DNA of 64,000 nt from Salinibacter sp. 10B. GTDB lineage: Bacteria > Bacteroidota > Rhodothermia > Rhodothermales > Salinibacteraceae. The position numbers and the translations under genes are program-made. Positions 17,188 to 32,708 of this stretch are shown here, one piece after another; position 1 is the stretch's first letter, and each line of letters begins with the position of its first letter. The DNA lies in contig NZ_MQWC01000004.1 in assembly GCF_002954405.1 (NCBI RefSeq), positions 2,283,909 through 2,347,908 of the forward strand, read 5' to 3'. The notes beneath the pieces were generated by a model. It did no database searches and had not been told where the DNA came from. It worked only from the letters and a program-made list of their open reading frames with translations.

Positions 17188-17625
17188 AGAGCAGAAGGGA
17201 TGTGCCGAGTTTCGTTGAGGAGTTTGGGTAAACGGGCCGAGCTCGGGATTGCTTCGTTATGAACCCGTTCGACCTCCTGTGGCTCTCCCGAGTGGAGTCG
17301 GAAGACCGAATCAGAATGCCTACTGAAGATGCTGGCGGAGGGTGAAAGCGTGAAGGTGCGAACGTTGACAGAAAACGATGTTCGGATGTCGAAGGCGGAT
17401 GATACCCTGCAGTTACAACGGAAACGACTTGGAGGGGTGGATCGGTGAGGCGATGCATTCGTAGGACGGGCGAATTCGGGTGTACGTGATATCGACCGCC
17501 TCTGCTGACAAAACCGCATACCAGCATCGCCTAACGGACCTTCTCTACCCTTGGAATTTTCCTTTTTACGTCCACGAAGAGTCCCCGGTCCTAGCGCTCA
17601 ACCTTCCAACCTTCAACGTTCCCCC
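17188..17625. other. Divergent intergenic region
   Basis: No gene is supported in this 438-bp interval between two divergent genes. It ends with a pyrimidine-rich stretch containing TCCAACCTTCAAC at 17605-17617, a 13-mer also found in the inverted repeat between pstC and pstA near 55718. Confidence 0.5.
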
Positions 17626-19335
17626 GTGACTCGACGGCTTCTTCCTTCCCTTCTGCTCCTCATTGGACTCTGCACGATTGGACTCTGCACGGCCCGAACG
17701 GCCCAGGCACAAACCGACGGCCTCCTCCAGATCGACGACGAGACCCACCGGTTCCTCCAGTCGCAGCAGACGAAGGGCCATCTGCCAGACGCCTTCCTCT
17801 CCCACCAGCCGCTGTCGGTGTACGAGGCCCGTCGCTACCTCGACTCCCTTGCCGTTCGCGACAGTGCCGAGCAGATCCTCACGCCGGCAAATCGAGAACA
17901 CCTCGCCTGGCTTCGGGGAACCACGGATCGTCCCGGCGCCGAATGGGCCGAGCGCACATTTTCGCTGTACGAGAATGGGCGGGACCTGATCTCACTCGCA
18001 GGCGAAGACTACGCTTTGCAGCTCAACCCGCGGTACTACGGCTTTCTCGGGCCGTCCGTCCACAGCGAGTCGTCGTCCCGATTCGCAAACGACCTCGCCT
18101 GGCGCAACACGCGCGGCCTCCGCTTCTCGGGCCACGTGGGCGATCACCTCTTTTTTGAAAGCCGGGTGTCGGAGAATCAGTGGCGGCCCGTCTGGCCGTC
18201 GTTCGCCAACAACACGGCGCCGCGCGTGGGGCACATCTCCTTCTACGACAACGGCGACCCCTACAACTTCTTCGAGGCCACCGGCGTCGTAGGGCTTCGC
18301 AGTCGGCACTTTGAGGTGCGTCTCGGCCGGGCTCGAAACCACTGGGGACCGGGACAGGGCAGCCTGTTCCTTTCCGATTACGGGACCGTTTACGATCAGG
18401 CACAGATCCGCGCAACCCTCGGGCCCCTGCAGTACAACTACCTGCTGGCCCGCTTCCTCGACACCGAGTCTCAAAGCATTGCCAGCGGCCCGCGTCGTCC
18501 CTCTCGGTACGGGGTTTTTCACCACCTCACGCTCCACGTGACCGACGCGCTTACGTTCGACTTCTACGAGGGCATCATCATGGGGCGCGACACCACCGCC
18601 GGGGGCACCGGCTTCGATCCCGGCTATCTCAATCCGGCCATCGTCTTTCGGCCCATGGAGCGGGACCTTGGGAGTGCTGGAAATACCTTGCTGGGACTGG
18701 GTGGGTCCTGGCGCCCCCTGTCGGGCGCGAACATTTATGGCCAGTTCGTCCTGGACGAACTCCGCGTCCCTGAGATCGGCAATCAGTGGTGGGCCAACAA
18801 GTGGGGCTGGATGCTGGGCCTGCACGTCGTGGAGCCGGGCGTGCCGCACCTGTCGGCCCGCATCGAAGCCGCACGCCTCCGCCCCTACCTCTACAGCCAC
18901 CGCACCTCGGCCTCGGCCTTCACCCACATGAGCGACGTCGTCACTCATCCCGCCGGCCCCAACAGCATCGATCTCTCCGTCTTCCTCGACTACACGCCCC
19001 CCGGCCCGTGGCACGCGCTGCTCCACGGCAGTTGGACGGTGCACGGGCGCAACGAGATCGGCCCCGATGGAACCGTCACCGCTAACTACGGGGGGGACGC
19101 CACCGTGCCCTCTCGTCCCCGGGTCCGGAGTCGTCCGGTGCCAATGCTTCAAGGCATCCGGCAGCGGCAGGGGGTCCTGGAGGCCGCGCTCGCGTATGAG
19201 GTGCTGCCCCACCTGCGCGTGACGGCCGCCGTGCGGGGCGAACGCCTGGTCGACGCCGAACGAGGCACAGACACCTACCTCAGCCCGCGCCTCGTACTGA
19301 ACTGGGGACTGCCGTTTCAGCACCTTCGGTATTAG
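17626..19335 (+). CDS. Capsule assembly Wzi family outer-membrane protein
   Basis: 569 residues from a GTG at 17626. The frame opens earlier at a TTG (17551), but the GTG gives a proper signal peptide: basic MTRR, a Leu-rich core and cleavage after TAQAQ. The mature protein has the features of the Wzi family: an N-terminal helical segment and then alternating beta strands, with the signature FEVRLGRARNHWGPGQGSLFLSD near residue 235. Wzi is an outer-membrane beta-barrel lectin that attaches capsule in enterobacteria; in Bacteroidota-like genomes relatives are common and their role is not proven. It is followed by a good candidate terminator. Confidence 0.85.
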   Translation: MTRRLLPSLLLLIGLCTIGLCTARTAQAQTDGLLQIDDETHRFLQSQQTKGHLPDAFLSHQPLSVYEARRYLDSLAVRDSAEQILTPANREHLAWLRGTTDRPGAEWAERTFSLYENGRDLISLAGEDYALQLNPRYYGFLGPSVHSESSSRFANDLAWRNTRGLRFSGHVGDHLFFESRVSENQWRPVWPSFANNTAPRVGHISFYDNGDPYNFFEATGVVGLRSRHFEVRLGRARNHWGPGQGSLFLSDYGTVYDQAQIRATLGPLQYNYLLARFLDTESQSIASGPRRPSRYGVFHHLTLHVTDALTFDFYEGIIMGRDTTAGGTGFDPGYLNPAIVFRPMERDLGSAGNTLLGLGGSWRPLSGANIYGQFVLDELRVPEIGNQWWANKWGWMLGLHVVEPGVPHLSARIEAARLRPYLYSHRTSASAFTHMSDVVTHPAGPNSIDLSVFLDYTPPGPWHALLHGSWTVHGRNEIGPDGTVTANYGGDATVPSRPRVRSRPVPMLQGIRQRQGVLEAALAYEVLPHLRVTAAVRGERLVDAERGTDTYLSPRLVLNWGLPFQHLRY

Positions 19336-21180: not shown

Positions 21181-22440
21181 TCAAAATTTATACGAGACGG
21201 AGAGGCGCACGCTCACTCGCTTTTGGACACGCGCCGGAAACTCCTCCCTGTCGTACCCCACCGACCCGCGAAGCAGCGTCCGATAGTTCAGCGCCATCTG
21301 CCCACCGGCCGACACACTCCAGGACGACTGACGCTGCACATCTTCCTCAAACATTGCCTCGCGGGCCGAAGTCCCGGCACTTCCGGCCAGCTCCACGTAC
21401 GTACGGGCTCCGCCCAAATACCGACGCATGGTTCCTCCCACCGATACGGACGTACCCCCAGAAGACGGCGTGACGTAGCTCGCCCCTCGAAGCATGTAAT
21501 TGCCCCAGTACTTCGTAAGCGAGCCGGTATAAATAAATGTATTTCCTCCTCCAAAATTGAGATGGCGCACCCCAACCTCTCCTGTGAGGCTGTAGGGAAG
21601 GCTTTTGTAGAGAGACGCCCCAAAGCGATAGTCCGGAAAAATCGACGACGCCGACACGCCCCCACTCACGTAGGCATAAAGCCCGCTCATCAGCGACGGA
21701 TACGCATCTACCTCAAACTGCAGGCCACTGGTGGAAAACCGGTGTGCGTAGCGGACGCGGCCAGTGATACTCCCGATGGACGTTGATCGCCCCACACTCA
21801 CTGCCCCAAAGGTCCAGGGCGTTCGAGAGCCCTGAAAGGCATCGCGGCGAGCGGCAAGCGTGGTGGTGTAGTGCATCTGGTCCTGCCGAAGGCTTTGCAA
21901 GGCCTCCCGGGCTTCGTCGTCGTTAGGCCGGGAGGCCAGAACGGCATTCAGCTGCGTAGCCGCAGCGTCGGGCTGTCCCATCCATTGCAGGATGGACGCG
22001 CGCTTGCGCATGAAGTACGGATCTTCGGGATAGTGCTCTCGGGCCTGGTTGGCATACGTGAGGGCATCTTGGGGATGATCGGACCACGTCTCGACATCAA
22101 TGATGGCCTTCAGGGCTTCGTAGTGGTCCGGATCCCGCTCCAGCACATACCGCAGTTCGCGTCGTGCCTGGTCGTGCTGCTCCTCCCAGGCAAGTGTACG
22201 GGCCACAAAAACCCGGATGCCGTGATAGTTGGGGGCTGCGTCCAGCGCCCGGTAGGCCATGGCGCGTGCCTTCTCGTAGTTCTCGTCCTCGAACGCAATG
22301 GTCCGCGCCTGGGCAAAGAGAGAATCGACCGACTGGCCGTGCACGACGGACACGCCAAAGAGGAGGGCAACAATCATCCCCGCGAGCACGCCCGTCCCCG
22401 GCTGAATCCACAATCTAGACACAAAAACAAATCGGTTCAC
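21181..22440 (-). CDS. YaiO-family outer-membrane beta-barrel protein with TPRs
   Basis: 419 residues, starting at a GTG (22438-22440) that overlaps the TGA stop of the upstream sulfatase gene as GTGA, so the two are translationally coupled. A signal peptide ends near VVHGQ. Residues about 37-195 are tetratricopeptide repeats (LAWEEQHDQARRELRYVL, then ALTYANQAREHYPED). Residues about 205-419 alternate polar and hydrophobic residues in strand-like stretches and end in VRLSVSYKF, an outer-membrane C-terminal signature with terminal Phe. This is the architecture of YaiO. The TPR block is similar to the one at the C-terminus of the upstream sulfatase, so the two proteins share a duplicated periplasmic module. 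Confidence 0.88.
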   Translation of the reverse strand: MNRFVFVSRLWIQPGTGVLAGMIVALLFGVSVVHGQSVDSLFAQARTIAFEDENYEKARAMAYRALDAAPNYHGIRVFVARTLAWEEQHDQARRELRYVLERDPDHYEALKAIIDVETWSDHPQDALTYANQAREHYPEDPYFMRKRASILQWMGQPDAAATQLNAVLASRPNDDEAREALQSLRQDQMHYTTTLAARRDAFQGSRTPWTFGAVSVGRSTSIGSITGRVRYAHRFSTSGLQFEVDAYPSLMSGLYAYVSGGVSASSIFPDYRFGASLYKSLPYSLTGEVGVRHLNFGGGNTFIYTGSLTKYWGNYMLRGASYVTPSSGGTSVSVGGTMRRYLGGARTYVELAGSAGTSAREAMFEEDVQRQSSWSVSAGGQMALNYRTLLRGSVGYDREEFPARVQKRVSVRLSVSYKF

Positions 22441-24983
22441 GGATGGAGGCGGTTCTTGAGCGTGGGAAGTTCGTCGTAGTCCGGGGCCGTCTGCTCGAGA
22501 GTTGCTACAACCTGCGTGGCATCCGCAGAACGGTTAAGGGCAAGCAGTGCCTTTGCCTTCTTGGCCAGGAAGTCGGCCCGATCGGGGTGGCGGTCTAGCC
22601 CCGCATTGATCGTCTCCAAGGCTGCTCGCGGGCGTCCGGCCCACAGCTCTACGTCGGCGAGGGCGTTGTACGCATCGTAGTACGCCGGATTGCGCTGGAG
22701 AATGGTGCGAAAGTGGTCGCGAGCCGTGTCGAACTGCTGCGTCCAGGCGTAGGTGCGCCCCAACAGCGTACGCACGTCGTGGTAGTCCGGGCTTGTCTGC
22801 AAAAGACGACGACAAAGAGCCCGGGCCACCGCATAGTCCCCATCGAAGGCCTTTCGCCGAGCTACCTGAAACTGCTCAGTCGTATTCAAGTCCTGCTCGT
22901 CGATGCGCGCAAGCACCGTGTCGATGGCCTGCTGAGGCGACGCGGGCCCATCGGGCGCCGACGCCGCCCGGTACGGCGTGGTGGGCGGAAGCTCGTGCCC
23001 CGGCACCTCCGGACTGTACAGCTTGTTCTGCTGCGTCACGTACTGGTTGACCCGTTTGAAGCGGGCCATGCGCTGCTCCAAATCGGCCTGCTTGTCGGGA
23101 TTGTTCACGGGCGTCAGCGCCATTCCCTCCGACAGGCGGTACAACTGGTCGTCGGCCTGGTAGTAATCCTTGTGCAGATAGTCGATGAGCTGATTCTTGT
23201 TGCGCATCAGCGGCCGCGAGTGGACATTGCGAAACTGCCGCGCCGTGTCAATCCGCGTGCCCAGCCAATGGGCCGTCTCCGGCCACGAAAGCCCAAACTG
23301 TGCCTGGAGAAAGCCGAGGAGGGTCGGCCCCACGTCAGCGTGACTGGAGACGGATGCAAAGGTCGCACTTTCGGCCAGAAGGGGCGAGTAGAGGAGGAAC
23401 GGGACGTGATAGCGGGCGATCTGGGTCGGCTGCGGAATTGGAATCAGCCGATGATCGCCGGTAATCATAAAAATCGTGTTCTCGTACGCAGGCTGCGACT
23501 GGTACCATTCGAAGAATTGGCGAAGGGCATCGTCGGTATAGAGAAGGGTCGTCAATTCCGATTGATACGTCCGATAGCGCGCAGCCTCGTCTTCGCTAAG
23601 GTTGAGTGCCTGGAGCCGCTGCTCGAAGCGGCGCCAGTAGTCTTCTTCCTCCGGCACCACGAAGGGATCGTGGGACTGCAGGGTGTGGAAGATGTCGAGA
23701 CGCGGCTGCCGATCAACGGTATCGATGATCGAGGTCGCCAGGGAAAACATTTCCTTGTCGGGATAGCCCCAGTACCGCTCCGTAGCCCCAGGATCGCCCC
23801 CAAAGCGCCGATGCAACTCGGACCGGTCCACGAGACGATCAATCTCTTGCCGCTTTAGAAATTGGTCGACATTGTCGAACGCCGTGTCGAATCCGCTGTA
23901 ATAACTGGTATGATATCCGCGCTCTCCCAGCAGGCGGATCAGCGTCTGGTGCCGGGGCATGTCGTCGCCCATCGCCATGAAGCCGCGCTCAGCAAAGGGC
24001 AGAGCGCCAAAAAGAGAGGGCATGAGACCGAAGGTACGCCCCGTCGTGCTCAGGAAATTTTTCCAGTACAGCCCGTCACGCGCCAGCGAGTCGACGAACG
24101 GCGTCATGCCTCCATACCGCGCCTCCTCTCCGATGAAGGTCGTCCCCAACCCTTCGAACACAATGACCACGACGTGAGGGGGACGGTCAAGGGCGTCCAG
24201 CTTGGCCTGGTCAAAAAATGGCCCCAGCACGTCCTCGTAGTTCGCCCGGTACATCCAGGGATACTCCCGGCTCCGCACGGAAGCATCGGCAGACGCAACA
24301 TTGTCGGTGGGCTCCGTCTTGGGCTGGTACTCCGTGGAGGACGAGGCAAAAGCCCACGCTGCGCTCTCCCCAAGAAAGTATGCCGTTTTGTTGAGGGCAA
24401 GGTGTTCGGCCGCGGGGCGGTCGGCATCCAAGGCAGACGTCGAAACAAACAAATTGAGGAGGGCGAGAATCCCGACGGCATAAAGGGCCTTATCGGGGAC
24501 GCCCCCCGCGCGAAGGAAAAACGCGTTGCCCACAAGCACTGCGATGAGGACGAGCGCATTCCCCCAGAAGACGACATTGCCGGCACCGGAGGTCTGAACC
24601 GTGTCTACGACCTCCGTCAGGTCGTAGGCCCAAAAGTCCAGGCCCAGCGGCTGCAGTGTGGTGGTGTAGTAGCGAATGAGGACCAAATGTCCCACAATGA
24701 GCACCACAAGCCCCGCCAGTGTGACCCCGAAGGCCACGGACCTTCCCGCAATCGAGAAGAGGGTGAGATACCCCCCAATGATCCCCACCGCCACAAACAA
24801 CGAAAACTCCAGGTCGTGCAGTCCCCCGACCAACTCGTGCTTCCACAGCGCTACATCCAGCGAGTGATGAGCCCGAACGAGCCCGTATTCGATGAGACGA
24901 CTAACGATCAGGGACGCAAAAAACGCAGCCCAGAGGACCCCCCCATCTCGGAAGACACCTTCAAGGTCAAGATCGAGGGTCAT
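22437..24983 (-). CDS. LTA-synthase-type membrane sulfatase with C-terminal TPR domain
   Basis: 848 residues. Five or so hydrophobic segments cover about residues 15-210. A sulfatase-fold domain then spans about 265-560, with the metal and nucleophile residues of the LtaS/EptA/OpgB group: Glu277 in VIVFEGLG, the candidate nucleophile Thr317 in TTGRTFG, Asp510-His511 in ITGDH and His526 in RYHVPF. Such enzymes transfer phosphoglycerol or phosphoethanolamine from lipids to surface glycans. The last 150 residues are TPRs (TYAWTQQFDTARDHFRTIL and following), an unusual addition that resembles the TPRs of the coupled YaiO gene. I infer a two-protein envelope system modifying or exporting a surface polymer; the substrate is unknown. 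Confidence 0.85.
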   Translation of the reverse strand: MTLDLDLEGVFRDGGVLWAAFFASLIVSRLIEYGLVRAHHSLDVALWKHELVGGLHDLEFSLFVAVGIIGGYLTLFSIAGRSVAFGVTLAGLVVLIVGHLVLIRYYTTTLQPLGLDFWAYDLTEVVDTVQTSGAGNVVFWGNALVLIAVLVGNAFFLRAGGVPDKALYAVGILALLNLFVSTSALDADRPAAEHLALNKTAYFLGESAAWAFASSSTEYQPKTEPTDNVASADASVRSREYPWMYRANYEDVLGPFFDQAKLDALDRPPHVVVIVFEGLGTTFIGEEARYGGMTPFVDSLARDGLYWKNFLSTTGRTFGLMPSLFGALPFAERGFMAMGDDMPRHQTLIRLLGERGYHTSYYSGFDTAFDNVDQFLKRQEIDRLVDRSELHRRFGGDPGATERYWGYPDKEMFSLATSIIDTVDRQPRLDIFHTLQSHDPFVVPEEEDYWRRFEQRLQALNLSEDEAARYRTYQSELTTLLYTDDALRQFFEWYQSQPAYENTIFMITGDHRLIPIPQPTQIARYHVPFLLYSPLLAESATFASVSSHADVGPTLLGFLQAQFGLSWPETAHWLGTRIDTARQFRNVHSRPLMRNKNQLIDYLHKDYYQADDQLYRLSEGMALTPVNNPDKQADLEQRMARFKRVNQYVTQQNKLYSPEVPGHELPPTTPYRAASAPDGPASPQQAIDTVLARIDEQDLNTTEQFQVARRKAFDGDYAVARALCRRLLQTSPDYHDVRTLLGRTYAWTQQFDTARDHFRTILQRNPAYYDAYNALADVELWAGRPRAALETINAGLDRHPDRADFLAKKAKALLALNRSADATQVVATLEQTAPDYDELPTLKNRLHP

Positions 24984-25719: not shown

Positions 25720-25905
25720 CACCGGCGATGCGAGAGGCTTTTGCGTATTGCACCGCCGTACCTCCTACCTGAAGTCTGCAGCAGGATTCGGTATAAAACG
25801 GCTTCTTTAGGATCCCGGAAGCCGACGTTCCATACGTCGCTGGGCGGGATCCCACCTGAAACAGCTTCTCCTTCTCAACTTCTATTTCCCCACCCCCAAC
25901 CGCCG

Positions 25906-26880
25906 ATGGCCGCCCTTCGCACGCTCTCCCCCTCCTTCGTCCTGTATGCCATTGGAACGATGGTCCTACTCACAACCGGATGTGGCACCACACATCCCCG
26001 TTCCGCCCCCGCCTCCACCGAGGCAGCAGCACGAGCCGACAGTCTGGCCCGCGTGACCGACAGTCTCGAACAGGCCCTCGCGGCGCAGACGGAGCGCGCT
26101 CACCTGCGCCATCCCAACCTCGACGCTACACTTTGGACCCAGACGGCGGTTGAATACGACGGGGTCACACAGGGGACCTACCGCCTAGCATCGGTCATGA
26201 TGAAACGGGCCCTGACTGATTCCAGCTGGTCCGCCGCATTGGCCCAGGCTGAGGAGTCGGCCGCGCAGTACCGTGAGAAGCCCCCCGCCGTGGTGCTGGA
26301 CGTTGACGAGACGGTGCTCGACAACAGTGCCTATCAGGCTCGTCTCGTACAAAACAATGAATCCTACGACACTCAAAGCTGGAACGCCTGGTGTCGCGAA
26401 CAACAGGCCGACGCGGTGCCTGGAGCCCTGCGCTTTACGCAGCAGGCCGACTCGATGGGCGTGCAGGTCATCTACCTCACGAATCGGGACTCGGTTGTAG
26501 AGGCGGCCACGCGCGCTAATCTCCGAGCGCTGGGCTTTCCGGTGGAGGATGCGCCGGACGCCGTGCTCACGCAGGGCGAACGGCCCGGCTGGACGCCGAA
26601 AGCCTCACGCCGCGCCTGGGTGGCGGAGCGCTACCGCGTGCTGCTGCTTGTCGGCGACAACCTGGGCGACTTCGTCGAGCCCGCCGACACGTCCCTCGCC
26701 GCTCGTCGTCGCATGAGCCACCGGCACGCCGACTTCTGGGGCACACGCTGGATTGTCCTTCCCAACTCCCAGTACGGATCGTGGATGGGTGCGCTTTTCC
26801 AGTACGATTACGCCCTCTCGCCGACCGAACAGCTCCGCCGCAAACATGATCGGCTCAAGACGAAACCCCAAACGCCTTGA
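25906..26880 (+). CDS. HAD-superfamily acid phosphatase, lipoprotein e(P4) type
   Basis: 324 residues from the ATG at 25906, which gives a lipoprotein signal ending LLTTGC. Upstream in-frame codons lie in the repeat region. The catalytic motif is VVLDVDETVLDNSAYQ with Asp-x-Asp, followed by IYLTNRD (motif II) and LLVGDNLGDF (motif IV). This matches class C acid phosphatases such as lipoprotein e(P4), which dephosphorylate nucleotides and other monophosphates at the cell envelope. A pst phosphate uptake operon lies 27 kb away in the same window, but there is no direct sign of shared regulation. Confidence 0.9.
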   Translation: MAALRTLSPSFVLYAIGTMVLLTTGCGTTHPRSAPASTEAAARADSLARVTDSLEQALAAQTERAHLRHPNLDATLWTQTAVEYDGVTQGTYRLASVMMKRALTDSSWSAALAQAEESAAQYREKPPAVVLDVDETVLDNSAYQARLVQNNESYDTQSWNAWCREQQADAVPGALRFTQQADSMGVQVIYLTNRDSVVEAATRANLRALGFPVEDAPDAVLTQGERPGWTPKASRRAWVAERYRVLLLVGDNLGDFVEPADTSLAARRRMSHRHADFWGTRWIVLPNSQYGSWMGALFQYDYALSPTEQLRRKHDRLKTKPQTP

Positions 26881-27015: not shown

Positions 27016-30000
27016 CTACTGATTGCCGTTCGGCCGCTGCGTGCGATCCGGGGCCGGAGGCTGCTCGCGCAGGTCCATACCCTCCGTTTCGAGAAGGCGC
27101 AGACCTTCCTCCACCGCCCGTTCAAGCTGCGGGTCACGCCCTTGCTCCACGAGACGCGGCGTCATCTCCACCTCTACGTCCGGTGCCACGCCCTCATTCT
27201 CAATAGCCCATTCCCCCTCGGTCGTAAAGAAGCCACCGCGCGGCGCCGTAATGGCCCCGCCGTCAATGAGCGGAGGCGTCCCCCAGATGCCAACCAGCCC
27301 GCCCCAGGTGCGCGTACCCACCAGGGGACCGATGTCCATTTTGCGAAAGAGGTACGGCAGGTAGTCGCCCCCCGAGCCGGACATTTCATTGATGAGCATG
27401 ACCTTCGGCCCCCACACGCCGGCTCCCGGGGAAGTGAAGGGCGTCTTTTCGCCAACCGGGTTGCTGAAGTACCCGTGCAGCTGGCGGCTCATCACGTTCA
27501 CCATGTAGTCGGCCGCCGAGCCCCCGCCGTTGTAGCGCTCGTCAATGATGATGCCCTCTTTGTGCTGCTGAGAGAAGTAGTTGCGCGTAAAGTGCTGGTA
27601 GCCGCCCCCACCGGTGTCCGGAATGTAGACGTAGCCGAGACGCCCATTGGAGAGGGAGTCTACCCGCTGTCGGTTCTTCTCAATCCAAGCAATACGGCGC
27701 AGATCAGCCTCGCTACGGGTCGGAACGACAGTGACATCACGGGCTCCCTCGGCGGTCGGCTCGTCATTTACAGTGAGGATGGTCTGCCGCCCGGCCGTCC
27801 CTTCCATCGCTGCGTAGGGGTTGTCCTCCGCAGTAATCTCTGTGCCGTTCACGCCAATCAGGTAGTCGCCCTCACTCACGTCGATGCCCGGAGCAGCGAG
27901 CGGGCCCATAGCGTCGGTCCACGGCTCCCCCTCGAAGATGCGGGCAAAGCGGTAGTAGCCCTCGTCTGCCGCGAGATTTGCGCCGAGCAACCCCACCGGT
28001 ACCCGATCCACCTCCGGCATGTCGCCCCCGCCGGTGTAGGAGTGCCCGACCGAGACCTCGCCGCCCATCACGTCGAGCACGTAGTTGACGTCTGCCCGAT
28101 GCTGGGCGTGCTCGAGCCATGGCTTATAGCGCTCATACACGGTCGACCAGTCGGCTCCATGCAGGTTCTCGACGTAGAAATAATCGCGCTGAAACCGCCA
28201 GGCTTCCCGGTAGATTTGCTCCCACTCCTTCGGGGGCGTGATGCGCGCCTCCAGGTCCGTCGAGAGCGCTCCGTCTCCCACCGACGGATCACCGCTGGTC
28301 GGGACCACGCCCCACGTACCGCCCGCCCGGTAGAGCAGATTCTTTCGGTCGTGGGAGAGTTGGAACTGGCTCACGCCTTCCATAAACGTGGCGCTCGCCC
28401 GCTCGTCGAACGAGTAGCGCTTGAGTGCCGGTTCGCCGGGATCTTCCCCAACTGGGGTCGGCATCTCGACATAAAACAGGGTGCCTGACGGTCCGGCCCG
28501 CAACTGACTGTAGGTATCTTTCGGAACGCCGAGAGAAACGATGCGATCGCCGAGCCCGTCGCGGTCAACTTCGACGGTCACGGCGCCGGAGGCTTCCTCC
28601 TCATTTCCATTCTCGTTATTGTTGGTTGACTCCTCATCACTGCGAGGGAGAAGGGGAGACTCGTCATCGTCGGAGAGGACAGCGGCGTAGAGGCCGTAGG
28701 TGGTGGGCCGCCCGTAGCTGCTCATGTCGAGCCAGCCGGTGTCGAGGCCGAGATTGGTACTGCCAAGAAAGTAGAGATAGTCGCCGTCGGCGCCCCAGGT
28801 GGGGTGCCGCGTCTCCACGAGCGTGGTCGCCACCGGGGCCGTCTCGCCCGTCTCCATCGAGTAGAGCATCACTGCGTAGTGCAGGTTCTCCTGGCGAACA
28901 GTGTAGGCAATCCACTCACCGTCGGGCGACCACGTCGGATCGATGGCCCGCTCCGGCGTAGCGTAGGGATCGGTGTCTACCTCTGTCGTCTCGCCGGTCT
29001 CGGTGTTGAGCGTCCAGAGGGTGCGATCGGCGTCGGTAAAGAGGACGTGGGTGCTATCCGGCGACCATTCCAACTCGTAGTAGAAGGTGGGCCCGGGCAG
29101 GTCAAACCGCTCCGGTTCCGTCAGGCCCTTCTGGTCACTCACAAAGAGCTGGTACTCGCCCGAAGCATCAGAGAACCAGGCCACCTGCGTTCCGCCTGGC
29201 GACCAGGCAGGACTGCGGTCGGCGGCGCCGGCGCTCTCGGTGAGGTTGCGCCAGTCGCCATGCTCGGTCGGCACAGTAAAGACCTCACCGCGCGCCTCCA
29301 TGACGGCCCGTTCGCCCATGGGCGAAAGCCGTGCGGTACGCACCTGACGCCCCACCTCCTTCCAGTCGGGGCGCGTCCAGGGCAGGTCGCCGCGCACATC
29401 GATCTCAAGCTGCGTCGTTGTGCCGGCCGAGGGGTCGTAGCGGTGCAAGTAGCCAGCCTGTTCGTACACGACCGCCCCGTCGCCCGCCGCCAGTCCCTTT
29501 ACGTCGTAAACGTCGTGCGAGGTTACCTGCCAGAGCGAATCCGCCGCGGTGTCGTAGGCCCACACATTCATAGCACGGTCCCGCTCCGAGAGGAAATAGA
29601 CCGTGTCGCCAAGCCATACCGGATTTTTGTGCCGGCTGCCCTCCCAAGGGACTTTCGTCAGGTCCATTGACTCCAGATCGAGGATACGAATCGGTTGGGC
29701 CTGACCGCCCTGATAGTTTCGCCACTCGGGGTCCCACGGATCCACGAGCTCATAGGCGAGACGCCGTCCATCCGGCGCCATCGTGCCAACGTACGCACGC
29801 GGCACCGACACCCGTTCCGGACGCCCGCCGCCATCCGGCTCCGTCGTCCAAAACTGCGGCTTCAAGTTCGGCCCCCCGCGCCGTCGGGACATGAAGAGCA
29901 CCTCCCCGTCCGGCGTCCAGCCACGTACGTGGTCGGCACTCGGGTGGTGCGTTATGCGCCGGGGCTGCCCGCCGTCAATCGAAACGACGAACGCATCGGT

Positions 30001-30273
30001 ATCTCCGTCGTACTCGCCGGTAAATGCCACCTGCTCCCCATCCGGCGAGAGGTGGGGCTGGGTTTCAGTACCGGGAAAGCTTGTGAGTCGCTCCGCCTCC
30101 CCACCGTTTTCCCCCACGACCCAGAGGTCGTTGGCGTAGGCAAAGACAATCGTGCCGTTTTCAACGGTGGGCTCGCGAAGAAGACGGGTCCCCTGTCCCT
30201 GCGCGGCGGAGAGCACGCCTATGCACAGGAAGAGCAGAAGAGCGGAAACAACAGGACGATGACGACCAATCAT
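27016..30273 (-). CDS. Tricorn-like S41-family protease
   Basis: 1085 residues from the ATG at 30273, which opens a signal peptide (LLLFLCIGVLSAAQGQG). The N-terminal 600 residues form TolB/tricorn-type propeller repeats with recurrent LSPDGE and WSPDG motifs. After an acidic, Asn/Glu-rich linker near residue 560 come a tricorn core domain (with His in GEVSVGHSY), a PDZ domain (LAAPGIDVSEGDYL) and the S41 peptidase domain with the probable nucleophile Ser in NEMSGSGGDYLPY and Glu in ENEGVAPDVEV. Tricorn relatives of Bacteroidota are exported peptidases. The exact cleavage role is unknown. It stands alone, with about 135 bp to the next gene end. Confidence 0.92.
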   Translation of the reverse strand: MIGRHRPVVSALLLFLCIGVLSAAQGQGTRLLREPTVENGTIVFAYANDLWVVGENGGEAERLTSFPGTETQPHLSPDGEQVAFTGEYDGDTDAFVVSIDGGQPRRITHHPSADHVRGWTPDGEVLFMSRRRGGPNLKPQFWTTEPDGGGRPERVSVPRAYVGTMAPDGRRLAYELVDPWDPEWRNYQGGQAQPIRILDLESMDLTKVPWEGSRHKNPVWLGDTVYFLSERDRAMNVWAYDTAADSLWQVTSHDVYDVKGLAAGDGAVVYEQAGYLHRYDPSAGTTTQLEIDVRGDLPWTRPDWKEVGRQVRTARLSPMGERAVMEARGEVFTVPTEHGDWRNLTESAGAADRSPAWSPGGTQVAWFSDASGEYQLFVSDQKGLTEPERFDLPGPTFYYELEWSPDSTHVLFTDADRTLWTLNTETGETTEVDTDPYATPERAIDPTWSPDGEWIAYTVRQENLHYAVMLYSMETGETAPVATTLVETRHPTWGADGDYLYFLGSTNLGLDTGWLDMSSYGRPTTYGLYAAVLSDDDESPLLPRSDEESTNNNENGNEEEASGAVTVEVDRDGLGDRIVSLGVPKDTYSQLRAGPSGTLFYVEMPTPVGEDPGEPALKRYSFDERASATFMEGVSQFQLSHDRKNLLYRAGGTWGVVPTSGDPSVGDGALSTDLEARITPPKEWEQIYREAWRFQRDYFYVENLHGADWSTVYERYKPWLEHAQHRADVNYVLDVMGGEVSVGHSYTGGGDMPEVDRVPVGLLGANLAADEGYYRFARIFEGEPWTDAMGPLAAPGIDVSEGDYLIGVNGTEITAEDNPYAAMEGTAGRQTILTVNDEPTAEGARDVTVVPTRSEADLRRIAWIEKNRQRVDSLSNGRLGYVYIPDTGGGGYQHFTRNYFSQQHKEGIIIDERYNGGGSAADYMVNVMSRQLHGYFSNPVGEKTPFTSPGAGVWGPKVMLINEMSGSGGDYLPYLFRKMDIGPLVGTRTWGGLVGIWGTPPLIDGGAITAPRGGFFTTEGEWAIENEGVAPDVEVEMTPRLVEQGRDPQLERAVEEGLRLLETEGMDLREQPPAPDRTQRPNGNQ

Positions 30274-30545
30274 AGGGCGGCTCGACGATTCGGGGCATGG
30301 GAAATGTTGCGGCATCTGTCTGGCGAACGTTCTGTGGCCTCCAACGTCGACCACTGTGTCTCGGCTTTTTCTTTACGCCACCAAACGAATTTCAAGATGA
30401 TGAACGGGCGGCCCGACATCAACCACGCTTCGTCCGTATTTGTCAGCGTTTCCGTGCGGCTCTTCTGTCTTGTCTGGCATTCCCGGGACGTGTTGACTTA
30501 CCTTGAGGGTGTCCGTCCATTTTTCGCCCGTCCCACCTCCCCTTC

Positions 30546-31262: not shown

Positions 31263-32708
31263 TCAGCCGGAGACCATTTCCGCCGTGGCGGACATCGGAG
31301 AGTCGGGTGTGTCCTCCCTCGCCCGCCCCAAAGGATGGTCGTCCGCAATGACTGTCGATTGTGCCCCTTCCTTGGCCTCGTACATGGCCATATCGGCTGC
31401 ATGGAGCGCCTGATCGATTGTGTCGTACGACGAGAGCCCCACGACGCCTCCGATACTCGCCGACACTCGAAGATCGCAACGATCGGTTTCAATGGGAAAC
31501 CGAAGGGTCTTGTGGATACGATCGGCCACCGAGCGTGCCTCCCCGGCCGTCGTCGCGTCCGGAAGACAGATCACAAACTCGTCGCCTCCGATGCGCCCCA
31601 CGCGGTCCTCCCCACGCGTGATCGTACGGAGCAACTCCGCCGCGCGGACGAGCACCTGATCGCCCGTGTTGTGACCGTATTCGTCGTTGATTGGCTTAAA
31701 ACCATCGAGGTCGAGGTACAGAAGCGCCCCGCTCCTGTCAGAGCGAGTCTGCATCAGCTCTCGAATGTCCTGCTGGACCGCGTATCGATTGGGGAGATTC
31801 GTGAGTGCGTCGTGCATGGCCTTGTGCTTCAGACGCTCCTCCCGCTTCTGCTGGTCCGTCACGTCGCGCTGGGTCGACACCCAGTGGGTTAACTCGTTCG
31901 TCTCACTGTAAACGGGGGCAATGTGCCAGGACACCACGTACGGCGTGCCGTCCTTCCGGTAGTTGACCGTTTCGGCGTGAACGGCCCGCTCGTTCTCGAG
32001 AGCACTCCGCACTTTGTTGAGCACGGACCGATCCGTCTCCGGTCCTTGGAGCATGCGGGGCGTTTGCCCGACCAGCTCCCCGCGCTCGTACCCGGTCATC
32101 CGGGAGAACGCTTTATTCGTCCATACAATCCGGGGACCGGGAGCCTCCAGCGGTTCTGCTTCGGTAATCACCACGGCGTCCTCGGCCTCTTCCAGGGCCG
32201 ACTTGAGATACCCAATCTGATAGGTCATGCGGTGAGCCTCCAAAAGGTCCACGACGATATCGGCGAGCGTGGTCAGGCGCGCCTGCTGTGCCCGCCCGAA
32301 GGAGCGAGGACGCTCATCCGTCAGGCAGAGCGTCCCCAGCCGAAGATTGTCGCCCATGTCGAGCGGGGCGCCCGCATAGAACCGAATCTTCTCCCCGGTA
32401 ACGAAGGGGTTGTCCGCAAAACGTTCGTCCTCGGTGGCGTCTTCCACCACCATCACTCCATCGTCGAGAATTGCATAGGTGCAGAACGAACTCTCCCGGT
32501 CCGTCTCGTCGACCTCCCACCCACAGATTGACTTGAACCACTGGCGATCGCGGTCGATCAGTGTGACGGCCGCACTCGACACGTCGAAGAGATCTTGGGC
32601 AAGGGTCGTGATGCGATCGAAGGACGCCTCGGGATCCGTGTCGAGAATGCCAATCTGATTCAGAGCCGCGAGTCGCTCGTCCTCATTGGCAGGAAAGGGG
32701 ACATCCAC
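31263..32708 (-). CDS. GAF-PAS-GGDEF diguanylate cyclase
   Basis: 481 residues from a GTG at 32708, giving the usual opening P-x-NE-x-RL-x-AL before the GAF domain. The GAF domain covers about residues 20-155. A PAS domain covers about 170-290, containing MLQGPETD, a hallmark of LOV-like PAS domains, but the flavin-binding Cys of the NCRFLQ motif is Pro here (QTPRMLQ). The GGDEF domain covers about 310-470 with an intact RIGGDEFV active site and LDLDGFKPIND. It should make cyclic di-GMP in response to signals on its GAF or PAS domain. It is divergent from the region leading to the FNT gene. Confidence 0.92.
   Translation of the reverse strand: MDVPFPANEDERLAALNQIGILDTDPEASFDRITTLAQDLFDVSSAAVTLIDRDRQWFKSICGWEVDETDRESSFCTYAILDDGVMVVEDATEDERFADNPFVTGEKIRFYAGAPLDMGDNLRLGTLCLTDERPRSFGRAQQARLTTLADIVVDLLEAHRMTYQIGYLKSALEEAEDAVVITEAEPLEAPGPRIVWTNKAFSRMTGYERGELVGQTPRMLQGPETDRSVLNKVRSALENERAVHAETVNYRKDGTPYVVSWHIAPVYSETNELTHWVSTQRDVTDQQKREERLKHKAMHDALTNLPNRYAVQQDIRELMQTRSDRSGALLYLDLDGFKPINDEYGHNTGDQVLVRAAELLRTITRGEDRVGRIGGDEFVICLPDATTAGEARSVADRIHKTLRFPIETDRCDLRVSASIGGVVGLSSYDTIDQALHAADMAMYEAKEGAQSTVIADDHPLGRAREDTPDSPMSATAEMVSG

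Follow-up and report, generated by a model that had tools for sequence, protein, structure and literature searches.

Why should a membrane enzyme of the sulfatase fold and an outer-membrane YaiO protein be encoded by overlapping genes and carry similar tetratricopeptide repeat (TPR) blocks? The question is raised by a gene pair of Salinibacter sp. 10B, a halophile placed here in the genus Salinivenus on account of its named congeners Salinivenus iranica and S. lutea, which have the same pair; the genes lie in the 64,000-nucleotide stretch of DNA analysed here (the window). A preliminary description made from the sequence had proposed that the two proteins form a trans-envelope system that modifies or exports a surface polymer. 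This remains the best reading, with two changes: the core of the system is a family 2 glycosyltransferase (GT2) synthase encoded 1.34 Mb away, outside the view of that description, and the enzyme is LtaS-like. We consider it probable, at roughly 0.65, that the pair supplies modification and export, one half of a synthase-dependent exopolysaccharide system. At the level of sequence, this reading builds on the coupling of the two genes, their shared module, their conserved pairing, association and fusion with GT2 genes, an LtaS-type active site and a TPR-barrel architecture; the polymer, the group transferred to it, glycan binding by the TPRs and export through the barrel are predictions. A PgaC-like GT2, encoded apart from the pair in this genome, would polymerise and extrude a glycan. 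The LtaS/OpgB-like enzyme would then move a phospholipid-derived group, most likely phosphoglycerol, onto the emerging chain via a phospho-intermediate on Thr 317, and the chain would be handed along two homologous periplasmic TPR modules, that of the enzyme and that of YaiO, and would leave the cell through the YaiO barrel.

Both open reading frames (ORFs) and their GTGA overlap were confirmed in the sequence, as were the TPR blocks of the two proteins (TPR_19 and TPR_14 matches), the YaiO barrel (PF19413) and the positions that had been named for E277, T317, D510 and H511. The enzyme (848 aa; 22437..24983, minus strand, as are all features of the pair) is a TPR-tailed, LtaS/OpgB-like membrane protein of the alkaline phosphatase superfamily. 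Its N-terminal hydrophobic helices (residues about 1-190; 24414..24983), located by hydropathy and in the structural model, are the likely inner-membrane anchor, and they are followed by a periplasmic catalytic domain with E277, T317, H438, D510 and H511 (residues about 266-661; 23001..24188), supported by residue conservation and by alignment to LtaS and Vibrio 3lxq. The C-terminal TPR module (residues about 701-838; 22470..22883) was recognised from its TPR_19 match, from helical repeats modelled with a predicted local distance difference test (pLDDT) score mostly >90, and from homology to the module in YaiO. The adjoining YaiO protein (419 aa, GTG start; 21181..22440) scored over both model cut-offs (PF19413, 170.4 bits versus 23.9; TIGR04390, 140.4 versus 32). 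It begins with a signal-like N-terminus and continues with a TPR module of nine helices (residues 37-190; 21871..22332; pLDDT about 90), homologous to the enzyme tail, and a modelled beta-barrel of about 14 long strands (residues 191-419; 21184..21870). The best Foldseek match of the YaiO model was BcsC (9b8a, E=1.6e-11), and PelBC ranked among the first ten. The 50 matches listed for the structural re-alignment of this model do not contain BcsC, which does not exclude the BcsC match. At the junction (CATCCGTGAACCG; overlap 22437..22440), the TGA of the enzyme gene (22437-22439) overlaps the GTG of yaiO (22438-22440), and an identical 4-base overlap recurs in S. iranica and at several loci of flavobacteria. 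A scan for promoters and terminators gave no signal above shuffled sequences.

The pairing was kept across homologous genomes. In a phylum sample of 394 genomes, the enzyme subfamily was present in 37, and in all 37 a YaiO gene lay on the same contig within 1.4 kb (co-occurrence counts are uncorrected for shared ancestry), a 37/37 pairing that led us to reject chance adjacency. YaiO was also found in 55 of the 357 genomes of this sample that lack the enzyme subfamily. Among 50 enzyme ORFs in the loci that were fetched, 46 had a YaiO nearby, always of the TPR type; S. iranica and S. lutea carry the same pair, and Aliifodinibius, Flavobacterium, Algoriphagus, Indibacter and Mongoliibacter are among the hosts with a name. 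Flavobacterium gillisiae and Algoriphagus mannitolivorans are culturable examples in which the locus is intact. Many loci have a GT2 and YaiO alone, and the idea that YaiO needs the enzyme was rejected on this ground. Two enzyme-family genes, a second copy in genome G198 (L112) and one in a metagenome-assembled genome (MAG; L105), had neither YaiO nor GT2 within the fetched stretch. Of the fetched loci, 17 also encode a member of a protein family of about 394-404 aa, and in 16 of these the enzyme lacks the TPR tail; the 404-aa member in L096 (7884-9098, minus strand) sits between the enzyme and yaiO genes and had no Pfam or NCBIfam match.

A GT2 gene was found at 44 of these 50 enzyme loci and was fused to the enzyme in 11, giving proteins of 1134-1270 aa. 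S. iranica has an apparent operon in the order GGDEF-EAL protein, response regulator, HEAT protein, GT2, enzyme and YaiO, and in S. lutea the GT2 gene is convergent, just past yaiO. The GT2 of the window's genome lies on the same contig as the pair (C4:965282-966673), accompanied at 965-970 kb by genes matching the upstream set of S. iranica. It shares 78% identity with the GT2 adjoining the enzyme gene in S. iranica and carries the motifs NDGS, DAD, GED and QRDRW; its closest model is PgaC_IcaA, at 139 bits and below the PgaC cut-off of 422. In the order, the close GT2 occurred in 26 genomes, all 26 of which have YaiO, and YaiO occurred in 29. In E. coli K-12, yaiP (a GT2 gene), yaiX and yaiO stand in a row.

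The similarity of the two TPR blocks, noted in the preliminary description, proved far better than that between unrelated TPR proteins. The two modules share 39% identity across 136 aa (E=1e-23); their local alignment scores 231, whereas 500 shuffles averaged 32 and reached 53 at most. The YaiO module (79 bits) was the only other match to the enzyme tail at E<=0.001 in the 4.75 Mb genome, and across 114 genomes of the order YaiO modules scored 75-98 bits against the tail, versus about 31 at most for other TPR proteins. At the sequence level, the match thus exceeds generic TPR likeness. By TPR position numbering, in which P766 and P800 take position 32, the conserved residues shared by both modules are two near-invariant tryptophans at position 13 of successive repeats, W747 (22743..22745; W85 in YaiO, 22186-22188; 100% conserved in both modules) and W781 (22641..22643; W119 in YaiO, 22084-22086; 100% and 82% conserved, respectively), and an aspartate at position 2 (D736/D74). 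Positions 2 and 13 lie on the concave, ligand-binding face of TPRs (PMC1261162). Both groove tryptophans were missing in 14 of 15 other TPR matches of the order. The exception, a TPR protein with a barrel-like C-terminus (L023:748-1887, minus strand), adjoins an ORF for a PIG-L-like deacetylase and one for a processive GT2, and possibly represents an exporter family of another kind, for which Pfam has no barrel model. Since the TPRs of BcsC have been reported to contact a putative cello-oligosaccharide (PMC11379886), the conserved aromatic residues of the groove may serve in glycan stacking.

The same observations bear on a variant of this reading, in which the TPR modules serve protein binding, to each other or to some other protein, and so bridge the membranes without touching the polymer. 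Modifying enzymes do dock on TPR exporters in AlgX-AlgK, PelA-PelB and PgaB-PgaA (PMC9734138), and few tails are found where the following gene is not yaiO: a same-strand yaiO followed in 23 of 26 tailed enzymes, at spacings of -208 (an over-long ORF call in S. lutea) to +69 bases, and in 0 of 24 tail-less ones. However, the residues conserved in both modules occupy concave ligand positions, as expected for a common ligand, and tail-less enzymes are still paired with TPR-YaiO. We regard the variant as possible, and do not favour it.

The catalytic domain, by sequence, by Foldseek and by structural re-alignment, was closest to LtaS and Vibrio 3lxq. Re-alignment gave Z 33.0 for LtaS 4uor and 32.5 for 3lxq, with LtaS-type structures at Z 31-33 versus about 23-27 for sulfatases. 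E277, T317, H438, D510 and H511 were kept in 18 homologues, with one threonine replaced by serine, so that the enzyme has both the fold and the catalytic residues of the LtaS type. T317 aligned with the threonine of the LtaS Lys-Thr-Ser stretch, the known nucleophile of LtaS. Because of this fold and these residues, and the missing sulfatase motif described below, the enzyme is most likely a phosphotransferase that uses phospholipid headgroups; phosphoglycerol is the candidate group. Alternatively, it might act as LtaS itself does, making a polyglycerol-phosphate chain, with the GT2 supplying a carrier or linkage glycan and YaiO exporting or holding the product. The closest solved structures are those of LtaS and LtaP, one of which has glycerol phosphate bound, and are consistent with this. 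Yet the LtaS equivalog score falls far under its cut-off and the partner is a processive PgaC-like synthase. Members of this superfamily can also decorate glycans, as BcsG (PMC11379886) and OpgB (PMC3818809) show, and we consider synthesis of a polyglycerol-phosphate chain unlikely.

Structures of YejM and PbgA were among the next matches of the enzyme (Z 28-29), which, with the separation of the pair from the GT2 gene in the window's genome, would suit an enzyme and YaiO acting on outer-membrane lipids or lipopolysaccharide, the link to GT2 being regulatory or historical. The GT2-enzyme fusions in 11 of 50 loci, the adjacency of GT2 and YaiO genes in many genomes and the conservation of the metal-site and nucleophile residues argue against such a role, and we hold it to be quite improbable. 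Finally, desulfation of an imported or exported glycan by a genuine sulfatase is suggested by the Pfam Sulfatase match (PF00884, 126 bits) and by sulfatases lower in the fold list, but was rejected as very improbable because the Cys/Ser-X-Pro-X-Arg formylglycine motif was not found in the whole window enzyme or, in any of the 50 family ORFs, in the N-terminal 110 aa of the catalytic domain, and a threonine stands at the nucleophile position. The name sulfatase in the preliminary description is thus only a fold label, and its remark that TPR tails are unusual was not borne out in this subfamily, where 26 of the 50 ORFs have one.

Several points weigh against a modification-and-export role for the pair. 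The GT2 gene is 1.34 Mb from it in the window's genome, and part of the co-occurrence could reflect shared ancestry. TPR-YaiO and a GT2 occur together without the enzyme at two loci (L145 and L146), and the enzyme would therefore be accessory. It does not reach equivalog cut-offs (51 bits against 970 for LtaS, and 25 against 572 for PRK12363 phosphoglycerol transferase I), and searches of Pfam and NCBIfam to E<=0.1 retrieved no BcsG family model for it. Taken by itself, the YaiO barrel is similar to a wide range of barrels (FadL, OmpG and CymA at Z about 20), and exporters are not singled out. No known c-di-GMP receptor domain was recognised, GGDEF-EAL genes being all that lies nearby.

Synthase-dependent exopolysaccharide systems consist of a membrane glycosyltransferase, a c-di-GMP-binding regulator, a periplasmic modifying enzyme, and an outer-membrane TPR protein and porin (PMC9734138). 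The motifs of the GT2 and its place near or fused to the enzyme at 44 of 50 loci point to a membrane-embedded processive glycosyltransferase; the LtaS-like domain, linked and fused to GT2, is the predicted polymer-modifying part; and TPR-YaiO, by its model and its best Foldseek match, would be the outer-membrane TPR protein and beta-barrel porin. By its parts the locus works like a synthase-dependent system whose closest counterpart in logic is BcsA-BcsG-BcsC, with each part from a different family, and we file it as a variant of this kind outside the Bcs, Pga and LtaS families. E. coli Bcs, which makes phosphoethanolamine-cellulose, likewise combines a GT2 synthase, an inner-membrane alkaline-phosphatase-superfamily transferase with about five transmembrane helices and a TPR-barrel exporter (PMC11379886), whereas here the GT2 is PgaC-like, the enzyme is LtaS/OpgB-like, bears a TPR tail and can be fused to the GT2, and the YaiO barrel has about four TPRs versus 19. 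The Pga system for poly-N-acetylglucosamine (PNAG) shares the TPR-barrel exporter and a GT2 of the PgaC_IcaA type (PgaA and PgaC), but the present GT2 is under the PgaC cut-off, and an LtaS-like enzyme and YaiO replace the PgaB deacetylase and PgaA. In E. coli NfrB-NfrA a GT2 synthase gene also overlaps that of an adjoining TPR-barrel outer-membrane protein (PMC8669469); that system has no LtaS-like enzyme, and NfrB has an MshEN domain for c-di-GMP. In five loci (L040, L047, L049, L059 and L060), a YaiO of another subgroup adjoins ORFs that resemble, by eye, UDP-GlcNAc 2-epimerase (WecB), which recalls the NfrC-NfrB-NfrA pathway. With the LtaS and OpgB phosphoglycerol transferases the enzyme shares its fold and Glu/Thr/His/Asp-His active site, and differs in its sub-cut-off scores, its TPR tail and its GT2 and YaiO partners. 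The E. coli yaiO-yaiP-yaiS cluster also places a YaiO barrel gene beside a GT2, but has no TPR module or LtaS-like enzyme and instead has a putative deacetylase and a broken acyltransferase.

In trees, all Salinivenus GT2 sequences, from genomes with and without the pair, grouped as a single clade within Rhodothermales. The TPR-YaiO barrels of the window and its congeners grouped with Balneolaceae (SH-aLRT 99), and the TPR-less YaiO barrels (G067, G072 and a second copy in G071) with Rhodothermales. G071, a Salinivenus MAG, has both YaiO types, on short contigs (L070 and L074). Within the genus the enzyme is limited to congeners having TPR-YaiO. Because the GT2 follows Salinivenus vertically, TPR-YaiO resembles that of Balneolaceae and the enzyme occurs only with TPR-YaiO, the enzyme and TPR-YaiO look like one cassette added to a resident GT2; transfer and differential loss both fit this history. 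In the TPR tree, enzyme tails and YaiO modules fell into largely separate clades, the tails of Salinivenus next to Balneolaceae tails and, likewise, its YaiO modules next to those of Balneolaceae, with the deep forks unresolved, and a recent local duplication was rejected on this basis. In the simplest history, the TPR-coding 5' part of yaiO would have been duplicated onto the preceding gene before the Salinivenus and Balneolaceae copies split. Phylogeny confounds the comparison of within-locus with between-locus TPR scores (164 versus 146), and it was set aside.

Elsewhere in the window, a diguanylate cyclase-type gene (GAF-PAS-GGDEF; 31263-32708, minus strand) lies about 6 kb upstream of the pair, and a relative (GAF-PAS-GGDEF-EAL) opens the S. 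iranica GT2 operon. Also upstream are genes for a Tricorn-like protease (27016-30354, minus strand) and a class B acid phosphatase-type protein (25741-26880, plus strand). On the other side, a signal-bearing ORF (17551-19335, plus strand) has a weak, below-cut-off match to the capsule assembly protein Wzi.

The function of the YaiO family has so far been unsettled, and we found no functional work on YaiO in Bacteroidota in the literature searched, the coverage of which was incomplete. From a conserved locus that joins YaiO to a lipid-headgroup transferase and a polysaccharide synthase, with natural fusions of these last two, we predict that a synthase-dependent polysaccharide leaves through YaiO at the outer membrane. 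This would give the family a testable role, in culturable Flavobacterium and Algoriphagus and, by extension, in E. coli yaiP-yaiO. We suggest, tentatively, that the locus may represent a Bacteroidota-wide pathway, undescribed in the papers searched, in which glycerol-phosphate decoration would yield a teichoic-acid-like surface glycan in Gram-negative cells, passed across the periplasm by a duplicated glycan-binding TPR relay. If true, this would add a likely phosphate-modified matrix polymer to the biology of the Bacteroidota.

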